NCBI GenBank assembly: GCA_905250025.1
Contig: CAJNOJ010000040.1
Coordinates: forward strand, 1 to 64,000
Direction: 5' to 3'
From: Adineta ricciae
Taxonomy: Eukaryota > Rotifera > Eurotatoria > Adinetida > Adinetidae
Length of the DNA: 64,000 bases
The notes below the pieces were generated by a model, which was not told the DNA's origin, did no database searches, and saw only the letters and a program-made list of their open reading frames with translations. Of this stretch, positions 2,748 through 18,135 are shown piece by piece. Numbering within the stretch: position 1 is the first letter of the stretch; the number at the start of each line of letters is the position of its first letter. A program made the translations under genes and the position numbers.

Positions 2748-4318
2748 AAAAGAATCAAGTTTTACAACTTTTTGCTAAAGGAAAACGCGCAATAATGAAT
2801 AGGAAGCGGAGAAACTCCAAATACTTAGGATTAGATATTTTGCCTTTCCGGTTATAATGAGTTCATTAAGGTTCATGACTGAAATATTTTATACGCAAAA
2901 GATTTCTAGGTATTGGAAATGTAACGTTAGTTACGAAGAAGAAACCAATTGCGTCTGTGCTGGGTTCTTTCCATCTCAATTATATTATAAAATGTTTTAT
3001 TTGCCGATAAACAATAACAAATTAGATGCCTTGACTAAAATATTACCGAGAAACTCCGGTGAATTACAAAACACAATGCATCTATATTCATCTGAGAATT
3101 GATACAAATAATAGGAAATTGTAAACAATTAGTGAATGGCATTGAACTGCATGGATAGAAATAGTCAAAAATCTGAACTGAAGAAAAGCGTTCGACGCCT
3201 TAGAGCACTTCGTTGCACTTCAAGAAAAAGAACGGAGGAAGAGAAAGTTCTAGTCTTTATTAATAATAGCCATTGAAATAATGATAATATTTTCTTCATT
3301 CTATCGTTATTCAACGAGCATCATCTGTAAACTGAAAGAACGTTTTCTCTTGTCATTCAACGCATTTGTCCTTGGGATACCATCTAAATTCTACTTCATC
3401 GATTTGTACGTTTGAATTTTTTGATTTTATTATGAACGTAAGTGATGACATTTTTTCCATGAGAATAAAGATTGTACTTGAAGAAAGAGGTGACTGTACG
3501 TAATAGAAACAATTTTATGCGTTAATTGTTTGTATTACAAGCCACAAAGAAAGTAAAACTTTCGTCAGTTTTCATTCTTAGGGTTTCTGTAAGCAACATT
3601 TTTCGTCTATTTTTCTCTTCTCGGTCTATTACACGTTCTGCAATGAAACAACTAAATCATCATGATAAATCAGCAATAAAAGTGAAAAAGATTCTCTACA
3701 TCGTCATACTCTAATTTGACATCATGTCATAGATATTGATGAAAACTTCGTTATGCGTTTTTTTGTTTTTCGACTTTCGCTCTTTCCCTCCTTTTATGAT
3801 GTCTGTCTACAACAAATATATCGTTGGCTCGTTAATCAAAGTAGATGTGTTATGTATACGAGACTTTTTGTTTCTTTGCCGACCTCGATCGTACAAGTCA
3901 GAACGATCTGTGGGATATAATAGGATATGACGTATGTTCGCAAGCGAGATATTATCTTTTATGCCCGATGTGTAGACTGGCACGATCGGCATCATTATCA
4001 ACATTATCCACTAGTAAAAATACGGATGATGTTAGTAGTTCGTGTTACATTCATTGATGGACGTTTTTCTTCGTCGATTCTTTCTTCTCCATTTTCCTTC
4101 ATTCGTTTGAGTCTATCTCTCTCATCCGGTTTGTCCTGCAGGTAGAAATAGAAGAAGAAGAAAACGTCGGTTATGTCGAAACGAGAAGAAAGAGAACAAA
4201 TCGTCTCCTAGTCTCCCATATGCATCATCAACAACAAACGCCTACCCTATAAAAAAAAACTAAAGAAAAATTTGACAAATGCAATGGCGAGAAAAAGATC
4301 CCCCATTTGTTGCCAACT

Positions 4319-4321
<3 letters not shown>

Positions 4322-4374
<53 letters not shown>
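4322..4374. repeat. CT dinucleotide microsatellite
   Basis: About 26 uninterrupted copies of CT on the plus strand. It is the longest simple repeat in the window and creates the Arg-Glu and Ser-Leu pseudo-reading frames that cross it. Confidence 0.95.
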
Positions 4375-4379
<5 letters not shown>

Positions 4380-6582
4380 CTTCTGCTATTACTCTTTTCT
4401 CTTGTACTACATGACGTCGAAGAGAGAGTATCATGATTATACAACACATACATATTGCTTGGCTATTATTGATTGAATTCATACTGATGGTTATGGTTAT
4501 AGTGCCGTTTGCATACATTCCTCACGAATGTGCGTCAAAAAAATGCCGACAGAAAAATGAATAAATAAAAGAAAAAGAGAAAAGAATCGAAATCAAAACT
4601 TATAAAATAGCAAAATCTCGATCTGTCTTTTTGTTTCTCGACTATGTATGATACGTGTACTTCGTAGATTTATAAGTGTTAAACAAAATATAGGAGAAAA
4701 GGAACACCGAACTGGAATGACAAATGATTGACAACTTCGTTTTTTTTTGTTCTTTGACAATTGTATTTATATGTTAGTTTTCTAGCTGACATTACAGGTG
4801 TCCTATGAAATAAAAATATGCTTCATTCAAAAGCTATTTGATTCAATAGAGAATGAAAAAGTGAATATTTGATATACATCCACCTACATGATGAGTGATG
4901 ATGAAAGGATAGTTCTAATATGGAAGTACTGTCAAGTTATTACATCATTACGTCAACCGTCTTTCTTTCACATTCTTTTATTTTTCAGCTTTGTTTTTTT
5001 CTTTTTTGTTGACGAATGTGACAGCGTCATTTTCACTAATTGAAAGCAGACTGACACCATGCAAGTCAACTGATGATACTAGTACAAGCAAGTTCTATGT
5101 GTAAATGTTGTTTTCTTTCGAATGCTTTCCTCAAAATTTGTTCTTCTAGTTTGTCGCTTATCGTTATTTTCTGCACAAATTATACACTTTGAAAAAATTC
5201 ATCAGAAATTACAAAAATAAAGACCTTGACCCTAAGGAAGACGGAAAAAAAACATATGTAATGAGACACATAGTGTATGGCAGATAGGCACTTTGTGTTT
5301 TTATGTGTCAGAAAGACATAGATATTGACGTATTTTAGATTTCTTTTTTCTTTCTACCTTCTAATAACTGACTTTGTTTGTCTGTCTCATCGTCTTCTAC
5401 TCACTTGTTGCTCCCCTTTCTCTTTCTGTCTTCTTTCATCGTGTTATTATTGTTGTTATTGTCGTCAGCGTTGCTATTACTACTATTCATTCGGTTATTT
5501 TTTTTCTCAACGTCTTAATACTTTAGTTCTAATAATAACATCGTCGACAAGTATTGTGTCTATCGACATTCCTTCTCCCCGCCTCTTTGACTTTATTTGA
5601 GAAACGAAGATATTTCATTTCCAATAAGTTAGATCTTCAATATTTTCACGAAGTTTCTCTCTCTCGTTTATGGATAAAATCGTTTGCATGAAATGAAGAT
5701 AAATATTCAGATGGCAATAGACCTTGAAAAACTTTCGAGTAAGAAGAAAAACCACTTGATATTCGATGTTTGCTCACTGAGCAGCACGTGATAAACCATT
5801 GGAGAACAAGAAATGCGAAGTTTTTTAAGAGCAGAAGAGAATTATGACAAGGCATTAAATATACTAATCGTTTCTTTTCTTTTATCACTACCAGCTCAAT
5901 TATTAGTAGAATACAGAGTTTCTTATTACTTTCGATGAGCATCTACGTTAAGACGTAAGAGAGATATTCGAACGTTGAGATATCGAGACTTGTGCAAGAG
6001 ATAAAGGGTCAATCACCGAACTATAGGTCAATATTTTTTTCTCTCACTCAATCATATGTCATATTGAAACTGTGGCGATGACCTCTCCTTTCCATCTATT
6101 CTCACTCCATACAATACCTCAGCAAACAACAACAATGATGGTGACGACCTCATCCTCGTTCTTCTTTCGTTCTGTTTCTCTCACTGGCCGATGCCCTATC
6201 TTTCACCTAACCACTCATATAAGAGTTCAACAAAATAGAGATTAAATAAATCAGCGTGTCCGCTGCAAAAAGAACGATTGAAATGTTTAAAATATAGGTA
6301 AAAAAATATATCGAATTGATATTTTTTTTTCGATTATTATAGCAACGTCAAATAGCAAGGTAGTTCTTGCAAGTAAGAAACGGTTGTTATCGATGAAAAA
6401 ATCAGTCAGATGACTTTCTGCCCGTTTCGCTGCTTTCTTTCTCTCTTCCTCTCTTCGTTTCACATTTGAATAGCAAGTAAATGCAAACGGAGGACAAGTA
6501 CACATCGCCTACTGCTATACGACCATTATTATTCGATGTGCAACAAACATAGATGAAGAACAAGCACAAGAACAGGAATTTT

Positions 6583-10512: not shown

Positions 10513-10586
10513 GACATCTTTGTTTCATGAGCAATGAATAGAAATTCATTTTCGATTTCTTGTCATTTACATTTGAAACACACACG

Positions 10587-11291
10587 ATGTTTGCTATTCT
10601 TGTTCTTTGCTTTGTTGCTTTGACCGCAGCACAACAACCAAAACCATGCACTACTCCACCGCAATGGGAAGCGAATATTTTTGATTACAATCAACAACAG
10701 AAATTCATGGTACGTGGACGATTAAGTTATGATGCTGTATATCGTCGTGAACGTATTATCGAAGAAGTTAATTTCGGTAGTCAGGGTGATGCTTTTGATG
10801 TCGTTGCTTTATTTGATTCCCAAACTGAATACATCTATGACTTCAAAGCTCGCAACTGCACACGCCGTCGAATTGAACGACCATGGCGTGATTTTGGCAT
10901 TCCACAAGATGCCCGTTCATTCGGCGAAAGTTATATTGGTTCATCAGCTGCGCCAGGTTTAGGTTTATTAGTTACACTTTGGTAAGTCTTTCTTCTTTCT
11001 ATTATTTCTCTGTATAATTCAATTCTATTGATCAGGGGTGGAAATCACACAACACCATCGAATGACACTGTTCGCACCTTCGGAACATGGACATATCAAG
11101 CATGTCTTCCTGTTCGATTCATCAGTCATAGTCAACGATTTGGTCGCACAGAAACATCATTTTTTGATATTACTGCTGGTATTAGTGATCCAAATGTGTT
11201 CATTCCACGACGTGAATGTCTTACAGAAAAAGAATATGCTATGCGAGACATCCTTTTTGGTAAACCATCGAAACAAATTCAACAACAATAG
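10587..11291 (+). CDS. Ependymin-related secreted protein, copy 1
   Basis: Two exons (10587-10981 and 11036-11291) encode 216 residues. A hydrophobic signal peptide (MFAILVLCFVALTAAQ) precedes the mature protein, which starts with a CTTPPQW motif typical of ependymin-related proteins. The family pattern continues with a Y-D motif (LSYDAVYRRERI), a DFKARNCTRR segment around a conserved Cys, and a C-terminal half with TWTYQACLP and DPNVFIPRREC. The conserved cysteines fit the disulfide pattern of the family, a secreted lipid- or calcium-binding beta-sandwich fold. An in-frame ATG-less extension upstream of 10587 was ignored because the signal peptide starts at this ATG. It is the first of three tandem copies; an AATAAA lies at 11355-11360. 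Confidence 0.88.
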
Positions 11292-11354
11292 ACAAGTGTT
11301 TTTTTTCTTCTTTTCAATCATTTCTTTCTTTTGATGTAAACGTATTTTTTACCC

Positions 11355-11360
11355 AATAAA
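11355..11360 (+). terminator. Polyadenylation signal AATAAA
   Basis: AATAAA lies 64 bases after the stop codon of ependymin-related copy 1, in a suitable position to direct 3' end formation. Confidence 0.55.
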
Positions 11361-12353
11361 AGAAAAGATAAAATATATTCGACATCTTTCATCTTGCTTG
11401 AGAAACTCGTTTTTTCATACTTCATTGGATAGCATATGACACGCTTGATATTCGGAACTCTGTCTTGCTGTTCATATTCTGTATGTACATAGATCATCAC
11501 GTAAAACTTTAAGAAACGTTTTGGTTAATTATTGACAGAAGATAATCACAGTAAATAAATGATTATCCAATGTTTTATTTATTCGTACTTCAATAACCTT
11601 TCGTAACGTATTTTGATGCCGGTTAGATAACATGTATTTATATAACAGATTTGTTCTATTTTCGCATTCAGCTCAAGGTGAGAAAATGCTGTACTGAAGT
11701 TGCGTTTCTTGGATTGATAAAAAAGAACACAAGTGTCCTATACTTGGAAAGCATTGTCGCTCGATATTCGCTTATCTGTGTAGAGGTTATTGCGGTTCTT
11801 CGTTTTCCAGATCGAGAAGACGAAGCGCGCAAAAAATTGAGTGCACTATTATGTTTATGATCTGTTTAACAAATATCTTTTGAATGCATAATCTATCGAT
11901 TTTGATGTTGCTTCAAACATTTAATTACTAGGAAAATCAGATTAGCAGGCACTTCTTGCGTTAATTTAATATCAAATGATAAGTGATGAATTCGTATTTA
12001 AGTTTTGAATGATGATTCTCACTTGTCCGGAAAGTACGCGCAACTCATATGTTACGAAACGACCGGACGATAAATGTTGTATCTCGAGTATTAATATTTT
12101 ACAACAGATGAGTTGCACGAACTTTCCGGACAAGAGAATATCACCAAATCTTGTTTCTTTTCTCACAAAAAAAGATAATTATGAAACACAATATTATTTT
12201 ATTTATTCCTTGTTTAGCCGGTGTTGCTTTATTATCTCCGACTATTCTGCATATGATAACAACAAGCTGCACTGATATTTTACAGTCTCTCTCTCTCCTC
12301 TCGCTAAGTCAAGGTAAGTGACAACAATGTTGACCAAACTTCTCTCTTAACGG
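11361..12353. other. Spacer between ependymin-related copies 1 and 2
   Basis: No supported gene. A 69-codon plus-strand frame near 11651-11860 has no recognisable features. The spacer contains the foldback structure described separately at about 12007-12147. Confidence 0.5.
12007..12147. repeat. Foldback inverted repeat
   Basis: The segment 12013-12048 is matched by the reverse complement of about 12105-12143. Both arms contain CTTGTCCGGAAAGT and GCAACTCAT with a few substitutions and small gaps between them. The loop is about 55-60 bases and itself contains another CCGGAC. This is either a small foldback/MITE remnant or a strong RNA hairpin in the spacer between two ependymin-related genes. 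Confidence 0.75.
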
Positions 12354-12363
12354 TATATATAAA
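12354..12363 (+). promoter_or_regulatory. TATA box of second ependymin-related gene
   Basis: TATATATAAA lies about 70 bases before the ATG at 12424. It is the same ten bases as in front of copy 1. Confidence 0.65.
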
Positions 12364-12423
12364 GAGAGATATTTTTTCAAAATATGCATCACAATTTTTT
12401 TTTCTCTCTATTAACAAGACAAA

Positions 12424-13125
12424 ATGTTTGCTGCTCTTCTTCTGTGTTTGGTCGGCATTGCTGTAGCTCAAAGACCACAACCGTGCACGACACCACCACA
12501 ATGGGAAGGTCGCGTCTTCGACATCAATGAACAACAAAAATTTTCTTTGGAAGGAAAACTAAGCTACGATGCAGTGTATCATCGCGAACGAATCGTTGAC
12601 GAAATCGATGAAGGCTCAACAGCAGATTACTATGATGTGCTCTCTCTTTTCGATAGCCGAGTTGAATTTGTTTACAACTTCAAAGCCCGCAATTGCACAC
12701 GACGTGAAATCCAACGACCATGGCGTGACTTCGGTATTCGCCCAACAGATCGATCGTACGGTGAAGCTTACATCGGCTCATCCGTTTTTCCAAGCACGGG
12801 TGTCTTAGTTACAATTTGGTAAGTCATATCATTACTCGACTCAGCAAATGTAATTTTGTTCTTCTCGTTAACCAGGGCTGGCAACTTCACATTACCATCC
12901 AATGACACAATTGATTATGTTTCCACATGGACATATACAGGATGTCTTCCAGTGTCTCGCACAACCTACAGTGACAAATTTGGTAGCTCACATTTATCGT
13001 TTTATGATATTACAGTTGGCATTAGCGATCCAAATGTGTTCATTCCACGACGTGAATGTGTCTCAGCCGAAGAATGGGAAAACCGATATGCTCTTTTCGA
13101 CGTACCTCATAAGAAAATTCACTAA
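12424..13125 (+). CDS. Ependymin-related secreted protein, copy 2
   Basis: Two exons (12424-12818 and 12876-13125) encode 214 residues. Exon 1 has exactly the same length (395 bases) as in copies 1 and 3, and the intron falls inside the same Trp codon. The signal peptide is MFAALLLCLVGIAVAQ, followed by CTTPPQWEGRVFD, LSYDAVYHRERI, NFKARNCTRRE and RPWRDFGI. The second half contains TWTYTGCLPV and DPNVFIPRREC. An NFT glycosylation site lies at the start of exon 2. By family it is a secreted extracellular protein; its exact ligand is unknown. An AATAAA is found at 13180-13185. It is closer to copy 3 than to copy 1 in the signal peptide. Confidence 0.88.
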
Positions 13126-13179
13126 CTTTGCATTTTCCCTATTTCATATATGATAAGTTTCTTTTTCTTCCATTTCCAA

Positions 13180-13185
13180 AATAAA
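13180..13185 (+). terminator. Polyadenylation signal AATAAA
   Basis: AATAAA lies 55 bases after the stop of ependymin-related copy 2. Confidence 0.55.
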
Positions 13186-13904
13186 GCAATTCTGTAATAG
13201 CATTCAATATGTGAACAGAATCTTTCCAATGTTTTAGAATAGGGCAAAAAGGATACATAGCGATCTGCAGCTCATTTCTAACTTGTTCATCAGTTTACCG
13301 AATGCGGAAGTGTATAAGAGTAAAAATTGATCTGACTCTTCTTCTTCGAGCTGTGACGACTGTGTTAATCGATTAATAAAATACTTTCTGTATACTTACT
13401 TAGTTAATTAATCAATTAAATAATCCATACTGTCGTGAATTACGATCGATGACACAGCAGTTCTTATCTCATTAGCCTAGCATCGTTTATTTGGAGTCTT
13501 CTTGAAGCGTAGTATTCTGTCGTGAGCTGTGACTGGCTAGCAATGAACGATCATTATAGAGCGCGATACGTATAATATTGAAGATAGTCATAGTCACCGC
13601 TGTTTTTCACATTTCTTTGTTGACATAAACATATTTCGATCAACACGAAGAAATGTTACTTAAACAGGCGATATATCTTTCTTTGATACTAAACCAACGA
13701 ATATACCATTTATTGTTCAGTAACCAGCTTAGTATCATCTTGAAGATCGCTACATCAACTACGAAAAATAGAAACATGTAAATATTCGTCATGTTATTAT
13801 CTAGATGGTATAACCACTTTCTGTGTCATTTTCTTTACTTTTGCTATCTACGCGCCCGTAGAATCAACACTGATAATCGTCATTCTTTTTGGCACAGGTC
13901 TGAG
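13186..13904. other. Spacer between ependymin-related copies 2 and 3
   Basis: AT-rich, with short palindromic AT stretches near 13371-13425. No reading frame with coding character was found. Confidence 0.5.
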
Positions 13905-13913
13905 TATATAAAG
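13905..13913 (+). promoter_or_regulatory. TATA box of third ependymin-related gene
   Basis: TATATAAAG lies 82 bases before the ATG at 13987, matching the placement in the other two copies. Confidence 0.65.
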
Positions 13914-13986
13914 AGTTGCCAGTGGTTCCAAATTTCATTCGAAATCTTCACAATTCTTATATTACCAGTCTAACGATACCATTCCA

Positions 13987-14682
13987 ATGTTCATCATTGC
14001 TCTTCTCTGTTTGGTTGGCATAGCAGTAGCACAACAACCACATCCATGTACATCGCCACCACAATGGGAAGGTCGTATATTTTCTAGCAATGAGAAACAA
14101 CATGACACCATGAGAGGAAAGATCAGCTATGACGCTACATATCGCCGTGTTCGAATCATTGAAGACTTTGAAGTCGGTGACGACGAATATGCTTTCGATA
14201 TACTGTCCCTCTTCGATTCTGGACTTGAATTTGTTTACGATCTGAAAGCACACAACTGCACACGCCGTCCAATAACTGAACAATGGCGTGATTTTGGCAT
14301 TCCACAAAATGCTCGTTCATATGGTGAAGCTTACATCGGTTCATCATCATTCCCAGACGCTGGCGTTCTTATTACTATTTGGTCAGTAAAATCTGTTTTA
14401 AGTTGACAAATATTCATCTAATATCTGTTTAGGGGTGGCAATTTCACTATTCCATCCGTAAACGTAACTCTTTCGTATGTTTCTACATGGACATACAAAG
14501 GATGTCTTCCAGTTTCTCGTACTGTCTACAGTGACACATATGGGAACGACGTTCTGTCAATTTACGATGTGACTGTTGGCATCAGCGACCCGAATGTGTT
14601 TATTCCACGAAGAGAATGTCTCACGGCCGAAGAATACACTATGCGACAAGCTTTGTTTGGTACACCAAACAAAAAGAACTAA
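13987..14682 (+). CDS. Ependymin-related secreted protein, copy 3
   Basis: Two exons (13987-14381 and 14433-14682) encode 214 residues. The signal peptide MFIIALLCLVGIAVAQ is followed by CTSPPQWEGRIF, ISYDATYRRVRI, DLKAHNCTRRP and QWRDFGI; the second half has TWTYKGCLPVS and DPNVFIPRREC. The intron interrupts the same Trp codon as in copies 1 and 2 but uses a GTCAGT donor instead of GTAAGT. NFT and NVT glycosylation sites lie in exon 2. The reading frame is intact, with the family Cys residues kept, so it is probably functional. No AATAAA was seen close downstream. Confidence 0.87.
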
Positions 14683-15399
14683 ATAATTTTTAGTCTTTGT
14701 TTTATTGTCTTCAATTTTCTTATTCCTAAGATACAATATCGGTTATGATGTGTGGCACGCACATCGTTTAATTCAGAACAAAATTAGATGTGTATTCGTT
14801 AAGCAGCTAAGGATTCCAATGCGATTTCGTCATACATTTTAATTTCATCAAGATTTTGAATCATGTTCTTCTTGCTCACTTGTTATAGTTTATAGATAAC
14901 TATTCCACTATCATAGGATAAGTACAAAAGACCATCTTCGCGCTCTAATTGACCCTCGATTGCGGCTGTTGCATTAGAATTATCACCTGAGATTGATGGT
15001 TTAGCAGTTGTCATCATCATAAAAATATTACAATGAAAAACAATATATGCCATTTAACATCGCATACAATCTGTCTGTGATGTGGAAATTCGTTTTCATC
15101 ATTCACCAACTGAACTACAGCAAAATCTAGGCGTTCCAGAGAATGTATGTTCATATACTCGAGCTGAAATTGGTACCTCAGCTCTGTTAGCTACTGTTTC
15201 TTCTATCAGTTTCCTTTAAGACAATTTCTTATTTGTAACGATACAATAAATAGTTTGCCATGAACTTCTTTCACTTCGAGATGCACACACTTAGCACCAT
15301 CTATAAATCTTTTTTTTGGATTGGCAATCATCTCTTTTCGAATCTTAAACGCACATTATTTATAAAAAAAAACTTTTTTCTTCTCTTTCGTTATGTATT
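14683..15399. other. Intergenic with two short opposed reading frames
   Basis: A minus-strand frame from an ATG at 15053 to a stop at 14883 encodes 56 residues ending in a protein-like segment (EGQLEREDGLLYLSYDSG). A plus-strand frame immediately next to it (about 15059-15220) has no ATG. Neither could be joined to other exons. They may be remnants of a gene broken by rearrangement. Confidence 0.4.
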
Positions 15400-15864
15400 A
15401 TGGATTCTAAATTTCCACAGACACACACCGTAAGGCTTAGTAATTTTAACTTATTTTCTCTTAGAATTTCTTATTTTTAGGCCCAAACAACATTGAACAA
15501 TCACGTTACTGATCTTGTTATAAGTAATTTTAATAACAAACTTTTTATATCTGTAACACAGTTTGGAAAAATCGGCAGTTTAGTAAGTTTTACTATAGTT
15601 ATTGTCATCAGTGTTATGATTGATTAACAGGTTCTTGTCCGTCGTGACGTTAATCTAAACGAAGATTCATCTCCGGTGTATTCAGTGAAATCTCTTCTAG
15701 GAAAAGATCAAGCTGAATATCATATTCTTGCTCGTCATCTTTACGAACGTTTACAATTGAAGAAACAGCTTCTCTTTGGCTTTGCATTACATTCATTCGC
15801 TAAAAAAGATCTCGAAACCATCGAAGACTTCATTTGTTCAAATATTCAACAAATTAATCTATGA
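15400..15864 (+). CDS. PSMG3: Proteasome assembly chaperone 3
   Basis: Three exons (15400-15429, 15481-15582, 15631-15864), joined in phase 0, encode 121 residues, very close to the length of animal PSMG3. The diagnostic segments are ISVTQFGKIGSLV, where the family has VTQFGK-x-G-T/S-L, then a short variable loop, then VKSLLGKDQAEYHILARHL, and finally a strand with an acidic C-terminal helix (DLETIEDFI). PSMG3 pairs with PSMG4 and acts in the cytoplasm on the alpha-ring of the 20S proteasome during assembly. Its stop codon overlaps the start codon of COX16 in the sequence ATGA, so the two probably share a primary transcript. The ten-codon first exon was chosen because it gives the only in-frame ATG with a good donor. 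Confidence 0.82.
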
Positions 15865-16136
15865 TTAACAAACGATTCGTCAAAAACTTCCTTCCATACA
15901 TTGCATTAATGGGTGTTATCTATGTGACATTACGTAGTGCAACGTGGGTACGTTATGAACGTCGACGACAACATGTTAAGACATATTCACGCGATGAAAT
16001 CAAAGCGAAAGGTCTTGATTATAGTGAGCCAACATCATTGGAAGAAGAATATGAAGAAATGGTTAAAAATCAAAATTTAAGCACATGGAAACAACAACGA
16101 ATTCAACGACCATGGGCAGAAGATCCAGATCGATGA
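15861..16136 (+). CDS. COX16: Cytochrome c oxidase assembly protein COX16
   Basis: A single exon of 91 residues. One membrane helix (about residues 10-25, LPYIALMGVIYVTL) follows a short basic N-terminus. The C-terminal half has the COX16 signature: SLEEEYEEMVK, then W-K-x-x-R-x-x-RPW and EDPD. COX16 is an inner mitochondrial membrane protein that helps assemble copper centre A of COX2 in complex IV. The length and end-to-end similarity suggest that the ATG at 15861 is the true start. That ATG overlaps the PSMG3 stop by four bases, an unusual arrangement for an animal gene. An AATAAA lies at 16193-16198. Confidence 0.82.
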   Translation: MINKRFVKNFLPYIALMGVIYVTLRSATWVRYERRRQHVKTYSRDEIKAKGLDYSEPTSLEEEYEEMVKNQNLSTWKQQRIQRPWAEDPDR

Positions 16137-16192
16137 TCATCATTATTCTTGTTTTTAATATTTTTTTCTATGAAAATAATCTTTTTCACGAG

Positions 16193-16198
16193 AATAAA
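16193..16198 (+). terminator. Polyadenylation signal after COX16
   Basis: AATAAA lies 57 bases after the COX16 stop. None is seen between PSMG3 and COX16 because the frames overlap, so this signal would serve both. Confidence 0.6.
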
Positions 16199-16554
16199 AC
16201 TCCTAAATCAAGATCATACATCGAAAATCCGTCGATATGAAAGATAAATATGCAAATGTCTGGAGCAGTTATGCACTACGAGTGGAGTAGCGTTGATAAA
16301 GAACGGTAAAATAGGAGGCGAGCGTTATTGTAACCAACACTGTAATGGTAAAACTACTAATGTGAAGCAATGTTGTTTGTCAACGTTGTAACTATGTGTG
16401 TTTCGATTGCCGATAGGAGGCAAAGAAAATAATGTTAACTCGACACTCAGATGAAGTATAATAAAGAAAAACATATTGACTTTTTCCCTACAGAAACGAT
16501 TTGTTCTAATAAAAAAGATGTGAAAACTTTCATTCGTTCGCTTTATTACATTTT
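16199..16554. other. Intergenic between COX16 and CIMAP2
   Basis: No reading frame or repeat of note. The part next to 16555 is T-rich and ends in a TTTTAG. Confidence 0.5.
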
Positions 16555-16556
16555 AG
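16555..16556 (+). promoter_or_regulatory. Candidate trans-splice or 5' UTR acceptor
   Basis: TACATTTTAG ends 18 bases before the CIMAP2-like ATG at 16575. Similar TTTTAG or TTGTAG sites precede the TMEM45-like and PGAP2IP-like genes. Confidence 0.3.
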
Positions 16557-16574
16557 TTCATTTATCTGTATAAA

Positions 16575-18135
16575 ATGGCTGCTGCTGATGTTGCTAAACC
16601 TTCCCCATTGGCATTCGCTAGCCAGACAGCTAGGTATGATCTAATCGTGTATTGATTGACTTTTGTAAATTATGAAAATCTAGATTTCAAACCACTGGTA
16701 TGCATCCAGAATTACTGACTACTATGCAACTTCAGAGTTCACCTTATGTTGGACCAGGTTCTTATGACTTAACGCAATATGGCGATTTCAGCGCAAAGAC
16801 TCTAGAAAATCGTATGAAAGGTCCTAATTGGCAGCATGCATTGTATACAGAACAAATGGCGAAGATTCCTCATTCATCTTTCAAAGAAACGTATGAAAAA
16901 CGAAAAGAAACTGAAAGACGGATTGGTCCTGGTACTTATCCAGTTAACGACTTTTTAACGGAAGCTGATCGTCGACCACATTGCGCACGCGGTGCACTCG
17001 ATCAATTAACTCCTCGATTTCCAAAAGAAAATTTGGTTTGTAACAACATAATCCAAACATTAATACTTATTACTCTTGTGTCTTTTTCTTTTCTCGAACT
17101 AGAATCGAGCGCCGCCGCCCGGTGCATATGGTATACCTGATGAGAAGCTCCAAGAAAAACGCTGGAAACAAGGAAGTAATGTTCCTTCATTCGATTGGAG
17201 TAGTGGAACAAGAACATTACCACTTGAGGTATGACAGAAATGGAAACTCACAAAAATGATTTCTTTCGTACGGATTCCTAGGGTTCAAAAATTGGTCCAG
17301 GAACGTATAATATTAAGAGTTCAATCAATGAACTACTTGAAAAACGTGTCAGTGAAAAAGGGCCCTATCAACTATTTACGACGAGTCGGTCAGCACCAAT
17401 ATCAACTGGACATCATGCAGTTCTTGACCGATGGGATCTATCACCGGACTTTCCATCGAAAAACTTTCCTGAATCTATCTCGTCAACTTATTTATTGACC
17501 AAAACAAAACATGGTACATTTAGTAAACTAAGCAGATTTCAAAAGAAGCCAACAGATCGAATATCCATCGATCATCCAGGTACCTACTCGGAAAGTAATC
17601 AGTTCGTTTCGTTCTATTCTACTTTTGAAAACAGGTCTCGAACCCAAAAATGTCGATTTTCCTGGTCCAGGTGCCTATGCAACCACACGAACGTGGGAAC
17701 AAGAGGATTTTCATAAGAAAAAAGTACCATTTAACACGTCATCATCAAGAAATGATAAACGCTCATTCACTAACATCGGCGGCAATCAAGTATATGAATT
17801 CATATGTTTTCCTATTCATATAGTCCCTACTTATTATTATTGCTTTTTATCTAGACCATAGGTGTCGGTCGATACAATCTTGTCTCACCTGTTCGAGACG
17901 AAACAGTAGCTGATAGACGTAAACGATCAAGACGACGAAATGTTGCCTTCTCTTCCACGACGTCACGCTTCACTTCAGCCGATAGAGAATCATTGCTAAC
18001 GTAGGCTATTCTCTTCATAAATAAAATTCAGATATATATATGTTTATCTATTACTGTAGTGAGCGGCTAAAGCCGCGAAACCTTCGATCCGAACAACGAA
18101 CACAATTATATACGAAAGGTCATATAACAGCGTAA
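16575..18135 (+). CDS. CIMAP2: CIMAP2/LEXM-like sperm-tail PG-repeat protein
   Basis: Seven exons (16575-16633, 16684-17035, 17103-17228, 17282-17579, 17635-17789, 17855-18000, 18060-18135) give 403 residues, close to the vertebrate protein once called lymphocyte expansion molecule (C1orf177). Sperm-tail PG-rich motifs appear repeatedly: YVGPGSYDL, RIGPGTYPV, PPPGAYGIP, KIGPGTYNI and DFPGPGAYAT, plus a weaker IGVGRYNLV. Such proteins are microtubule-associated components of cilia and flagella. The C-terminus is very basic (DRRKRSRRR). All intron phases are consistent and no stop interrupts the chain. Assignment within the PG-repeat group rests on length and the order of motifs. Confidence 0.8.

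Follow-up and report, generated by a model that had tools for sequence, protein, structure and literature searches.

Within the window (the whole stretch of 64,000 nucleotides analysed here), the genes PSMG3 and COX16 follow one another on the plus strand of contig C40 at 15400-16136, and they overlap in such a manner that the stop codon of the first and the start codon of the second share the bases ATGA. Moreover, once PSMG3 is spliced as modelled, not a single ATG is left in any frame between its own start and that of COX16. In our estimation there is about an even chance that both genes are carried by a common mRNA and that COX16 is reached by ribosomal subunits which scan through PSMG3. 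The initial annotation, which had proposed a bicistronic mRNA for this locus, did not mention the absence of AUGs from PSMG3, and it is this feature that guides much of the following argument.

The overlapping gene pair and its second copy

The assembly containing the window has 130.5 Mb in 1033 contigs, and the GC content of the window is 35.1%. As modelled from the DNA sequence, PSMG3 would consist of three exons (15400..15429, 15481..15582 and 15631..15864) separated by two short GT..AG introns at 15430-15480 (51 bases) and 15583-15630 (48 bases), giving a spliced coding sequence of 366 nt and a protein of 121 aa, while COX16 lies in one exon at 15861..16136 with 91 aa. The PSMG3 protein is recognised as Pfam PAC3 (1.6e-17) and the COX16 protein as Pfam COX16 (6.9e-12), each match passing its curated cut-off. 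In a search of the PDB, the former also matches a solved PSMG3 chain of 122 aa (2z5e_A, 7.6e-8), and for the latter no solved chain was found at E<=1.

The ATG at 15861-15863 that begins COX16 and the TGA at 15862-15864 that ends PSMG3 have the four bases 15861..15864 in common. An earlier start for COX16 within the same exon is impossible because a TAA stands in its frame at 15855-15857, two codons ahead of its ATG, and this TAA, together with the AG-free stretch 15827-15860, also rules out a coding exon upstream of COX16. A fusion of the two proteins by -1 frameshifting was considered as well, COX16 being in the -1 frame, but no sequence of the form X_XXY_YYZ could be seen by eye near the stop; a scan of 13000-18000 with Rfam at the gathering thresholds returned no matches.

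An overlap of open frames is by itself weak evidence. When 114 kb were scanned for ATGA overlaps between an open frame of at least 60 codons and an ATG-initiated frame of at least 75 aa, 3 were found with PSMG3/COX16 counted among them, whereas 20 Markov shuffles gave 0.4 on average. The overlap noticed in the initial annotation is nevertheless borne out as a real one, because both of its frames belong to known protein families and because it is retained in a second genomic copy.

This second copy is situated on a homologous segment of contig C283, which carries both genes and is collinear with 2554-29497 of the window, with an identity of 91.9-95.1% in the four largest blocks of the alignment. 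This segment retains an identical ATGA, both introns, both reading frames and the AATAAA polyadenylation signal that follows COX16 at 16193..16198. PSMG3 differs between the copies by 7 synonymous codon changes and 0 amino-acid changes, with 0 of the 102 bases of exon 2 different, while in COX16 there are 6 synonymous changes and 3 amino-acid replacements, with a pN/pS of about 0.13; thus, from the pattern of substitution, both frames look to be under purifying selection. At E<=1, the assembly yielded no copy of PSMG3 or COX16 beyond those on C40 and C283.

As for the signals of mRNA processing, AATAAA occurs within 15240-16300 only at 15245 and 16193, and ATTAAA was not found there; neither of them lies inside the gene pair or anywhere else in 15246-16192. 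Among 11 further poly(A) variants scanned, only AAAAAG at 15803, within PSMG3, falls inside the pair. As the initial annotation had stated, the AATAAA stands after COX16, with this weak variant as the sole addition among those scanned. The last AG before the COX16 ATG, which the initial annotation had placed about 30 bases inside PSMG3, is at 15825-15826 with 34 bases in between.

PSMG3 without internal ATG and the sequence ahead of it

In the spliced PSMG3 an ATG is found at the first codon and the next one is the start of COX16, which holds for both copies; exon 2 is free of ATG in every frame, and so is exon 3 before 15861. Given the PSMG3 protein, 2.9-3.3 off-frame ATGs are expected and 0 are observed. 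The chance of having none is 0.009 if synonymous codons are shuffled within the gene, 0.0022 with the codon usage of 11 long frames of the window and 0.0043 with that of 59 open frames taken from 114 kb, these p-values being post hoc and concerning one gene in two closely related, non-independent copies. In addition, the PSMG3 protein has no internal Met, for which the chance is about 0.09. As a control, open frames were divided into 82 non-overlapping pieces of 363 nt, of which 2 were without off-frame ATG and 1 was without ATG in every frame, this one coming from a frame whose coding status is doubtful by its look; when the 11 window frames were cut into 230 overlapping pieces, 0 of these were free of ATG in all frames and 1 was free of it off-frame. 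Elsewhere at the locus ATGs do occur, namely in intron 2 (15616) and upstream of the pair (15260, 15281 and 15393), and COX16 has as many as 11 of them in its 276 nt, the start included.

The upstream ATG at 15393 opens a candidate uORF of 5 codons (15393..15410), seen in the DNA as MYYGF in the window and MHYGF in C283, which overlaps the PSMG3 start and terminates just beyond the PSMG3 ATG. Its ATG and its stop (15408-15410) are both retained in the two copies, and the 351 spliced bases that follow this stop contain no AUG until the COX16 start is reached. It would act as a uORF only if the 5' end of the mRNA precedes 15393. With regard to start contexts, that of PSMG3 is strong (ATTATGG, with A at -3 and G at +4) and the same in both copies, that of COX16 is weak (TCTATGA, with T at -3), and that of the uORF reads GTTATGT. 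For reference, among 17 long frames whose starts were picked mechanically, 11 have a purine and 1 has a T at -3.

Further upstream, the stretch 15263..15378 comprises 116 positions without substitution between the window and C283, interrupted by one inserted A in the latter, and is the longest of the 13 runs of at least 60 within 13800-18100; other unsubstituted runs are present between COX16 and the next gene downstream. By comparison, the copies differ at 55/560 positions (9.8%) in 14700-15261, at 3/51 in intron 1 and at 8/48 in intron 2. We regard this stretch as a putative promoter or 5' leader of PSMG3, in which TATAAA at 15302 and ATTGG (of the CCAAT type) near 15320 are presumably promoter motifs. 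It could instead be coding on the minus strand, where an open frame of 49 codons covers 15263-15355; a Pfam match for this frame was not found. Four short protein-like open frames were observed on the minus strand in 14883-15355, which gave no Pfam match at E<=1 and are perhaps what is left of a decayed gene.

Possible routes to the COX16 start

In the reading that we prefer, PSMG3 and COX16 would share one mRNA, for which the promoter is placed upstream of 15393 and the poly(A) site beyond 16198. PSMG3 would be translated from its strong AUG at 15400, and COX16 by 40S subunits that scan across PSMG3, which would be kept AUG-free in all frames for them. The PSMG3 AUG might be bypassed in two ways, either by translation of the 5-codon uORF at 15393 followed by reinitiation at the COX16 AUG, or by leaky scanning. 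The common mRNA is supported by the overlap, by the lack of an internal AATAAA and by the unsubstituted upstream stretch as opposed to the diverging introns, and this anatomy lends support to the candidate bicistronic mRNA of the initial annotation, though scanning, with or without the uORF, seems to fit better than the two mechanisms proposed there. Simple leaky scanning is made less likely by the strong context of PSMG3 and the weak one of COX16, which point rather to the uORF route; taken on its own, this route can be held only tentatively. More speculatively, the uORF lying across the first start may be a switch that divides ribosomes between PSMG3 and COX16, so that the use of the uORF, and hence the status of eIF2, for example on drying, would set the ratio of the two proteins; we hold this to be rather improbable.

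The main rival of this reading is that COX16 has 5' ends of its own inside PSMG3, which the absence of AUGs fits equally well. An mRNA for COX16 alone might arise from an internal promoter, or through addition of a spliced leader at an acceptor within PSMG3 such as that of exon 2 or 3, and the PSMG3 sequence would then be an AUG-free 5' UTR in which the COX16 AUG is the first on any such mRNA. With a published rotifer spliced-leader sequence as the query (PMC3795323), 44 genomic occurrences with <=2 mismatches were obtained and 0 in the reversed control. All 44 begin with T in place of the G of the published consensus, 41 of them are identical, and among 30 loci read, GT stands directly after the leader in 17/17 forward-sense copies. 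Trans-splicing is thus likely to operate in this animal. Candidate acceptors within PSMG3 are those of exon 2, with 15/20 pyrimidines, and of exon 3, with 10/20, besides other AGs. However, the AG nearest to the COX16 start (15825), 34 bases upstream of it, has a poor tract with 8/20, and an acceptor with a pyrimidine tract just before this start was not found; intron 2 has diverged to such a degree that a conserved internal promoter is not visible in it, and neither AATAAA nor ATTAAA was found that would end a separate PSMG3 mRNA. Trans-splicing, which was one of the two mechanisms offered in the initial annotation, is a serious candidate, and we consider a COX16-specific mRNA to be somewhat unlikely, though it is the foremost of the alternatives.

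As to the leader sequences themselves, 34 of the 44 form 17 divergent pairs, in most of which the two starts are separated by 151-154 bases (by 371 on C79 and by 467 on C146), and the contigs bearing copies include C2, C6, C8, C43, C76, C77, C79, C99, C112 and C146.

The other mechanism offered was coupled termination-reinitiation, where ribosomes that end PSMG3 restart at the overlapping COX16 AUG through ATGA. The retention of the stop/start overlap in both copies agrees with it, and a ribosome brought to the COX16 start by termination would depend less on the weak context found there. It does not predict, however, that AUG should be absent along all 121 codons, and it is not favoured because this absence in every frame is left unexplained; an AUG-free first cistron points to scanning 40S subunits and not to stop-coupled reinitiation. 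To our knowledge, animal ribosomes seldom reinitiate after a long ORF, and stop-coupled reinitiation in viruses involves a ribosome-binding sequence upstream of the stop. We therefore judge this mechanism to be quite unlikely.

Finally, it is very improbable that the overlap is a bystander of a compact genome, having separate promoters and poly(A) sites hidden from consensus motifs and lacking AUGs by chance, for while the p-values of 0.002-0.009 are post hoc, 2/82 control pieces are likewise without off-frame ATG and AAAAAG at 15803 might act as a weak signal, the pair contains neither AATAAA nor ATTAAA, and the 34 bases directly ahead of the COX16 ATG are free of AG. PSMG3/COX16 lends itself to a direct test of trans-splicing, leaky scanning, uORF bypass and stop-coupled reinitiation against one another, since they predict different outcomes for small changes in a reporter.

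Known systems and the ohnologous loci

Dicistronic mRNAs of animals are already established, and the arrangement with a uORF would be a more interesting variant if confirmed. For Drosophila, FlyBase is described as containing 159 such pairs, and dicistronic transcripts are apparently the only source for 45 of them (PMC4528330). With such a number, it is a weak argument that the pairing of a proteasome chaperone with a mitochondrial oxidase assembly factor is functionally unexpected, as the initial annotation had put it.

Scanning through PSMG3 with the help of a uORF would resemble the case of KSHV ORF35/ORF36, where a uORF lies over the first start, 332 nt are scanned, the cistrons overlap, and ORF36 is reported to be expressed via the uORF and reinitiation (PMC3561293). 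The two systems have in common a short uORF over a favourable first start, a span of about 330-350 nt with few or no AUGs and overlapping cistrons. The KSHV pair differs in that it is viral, the function of its uORF has been demonstrated experimentally, it has two uORFs and one AUG is present inside its first cistron, whereas the PSMG3/COX16 pair has a candidate uORF of 5 codons, seen in the DNA, and no AUG inside the first cistron. In Drosophila, stoned and Snapin are described as having dicistronic mRNAs with a first cistron poor in internal AUGs and a second one reached by leaky scanning (PMC11892635, PMC3372440). Like them, PSMG3/COX16 are animal nuclear genes with internal AUGs absent from the first cistron, the common mRNA being a presumed one here; unlike them, where the first start is reported to have diverged from the consensus, PSMG3 has a strong start. 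Similarly, the bicistronic loci of green algae are reported to be depleted of AUGs before ORF2 and to have weak ORF1 and stronger ORF2 contexts, leaky scanning having been shown for them (PMC11892635). The depletion of AUGs is common to these loci and to PSMG3/COX16, but the strengths of the start contexts are reversed.

Operons without intercistronic region are also described for tunicates, in which addition of a spliced leader yields separate mRNAs (PMC7986045). PSMG3/COX16 share with them the lack of a spacer and the presence of a spliced leader in the genome; they differ in that no good acceptor adjoins the COX16 start and that AATAAA is absent between the two frames. For rotifers, operons were entered as not determined in a table of 2008 (PMC2481426). 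In the literature searched, we found no paper on the PSMG3-COX16 pair, joint mentions being on cancer by their titles, and none combining COX16 with bicistronic; a search for operons in bdelloids or Adineta ricciae gave no title on the topic. If true, the present arrangement would be a small and clean example, from an animal, of a single mRNA on which two housekeeping proteins unrelated to each other both rely, and this where a spliced leader in the genome might have made separate mRNAs an easy solution. An AUG-free first cistron could then be used as a criterion for seeking other dicistronic genes of rotifers.

The genome is bdelloid-like in its spliced leader and in having homologous and ohnologous segments paired, and both the GC content of the window and the divergence of several per cent between the copies resemble the values given for Adineta ricciae (35.6% GC and a median divergence of 4.55%; PMC5916493). 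The gene next downstream of the pair is 71% identical in ohnologous loci on C96 and C79. In these loci (3.3 kb each), neither PSMG3 nor COX16 was found by tblastn with both proteins, the best match having E=0.44; a possible relic of PSMG3, NVNVTDLVM against NNHVTDLVI of the protein, was rejected as too weak (E 2.5). Over the 10 kb compared of the C96 segment, the neighbouring genes have the same order as in the window, and the interval opposite 14700-16560 of the window is occupied by a minus-strand phosphoglycerate kinase gene (Pfam PGK, 6.1e-50; 4168-5705 of the C96 stretch). Judging from these matches, the gene content of the C96 locus is different from that of the window after the ancient duplication, and PSMG3 and COX16, which are jointly absent there, may have been lost or may have arrived only in the other lineage. 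Besides, three tandem ependymin-like genes are located at 10542-14679 of the window, all matching one and the same part of the C96 segment (about 3000-3660 of the stretch compared); the third of them (13987-14406), which is the only one that was put to Pfam, matches Ependymin with 2.2e-13.
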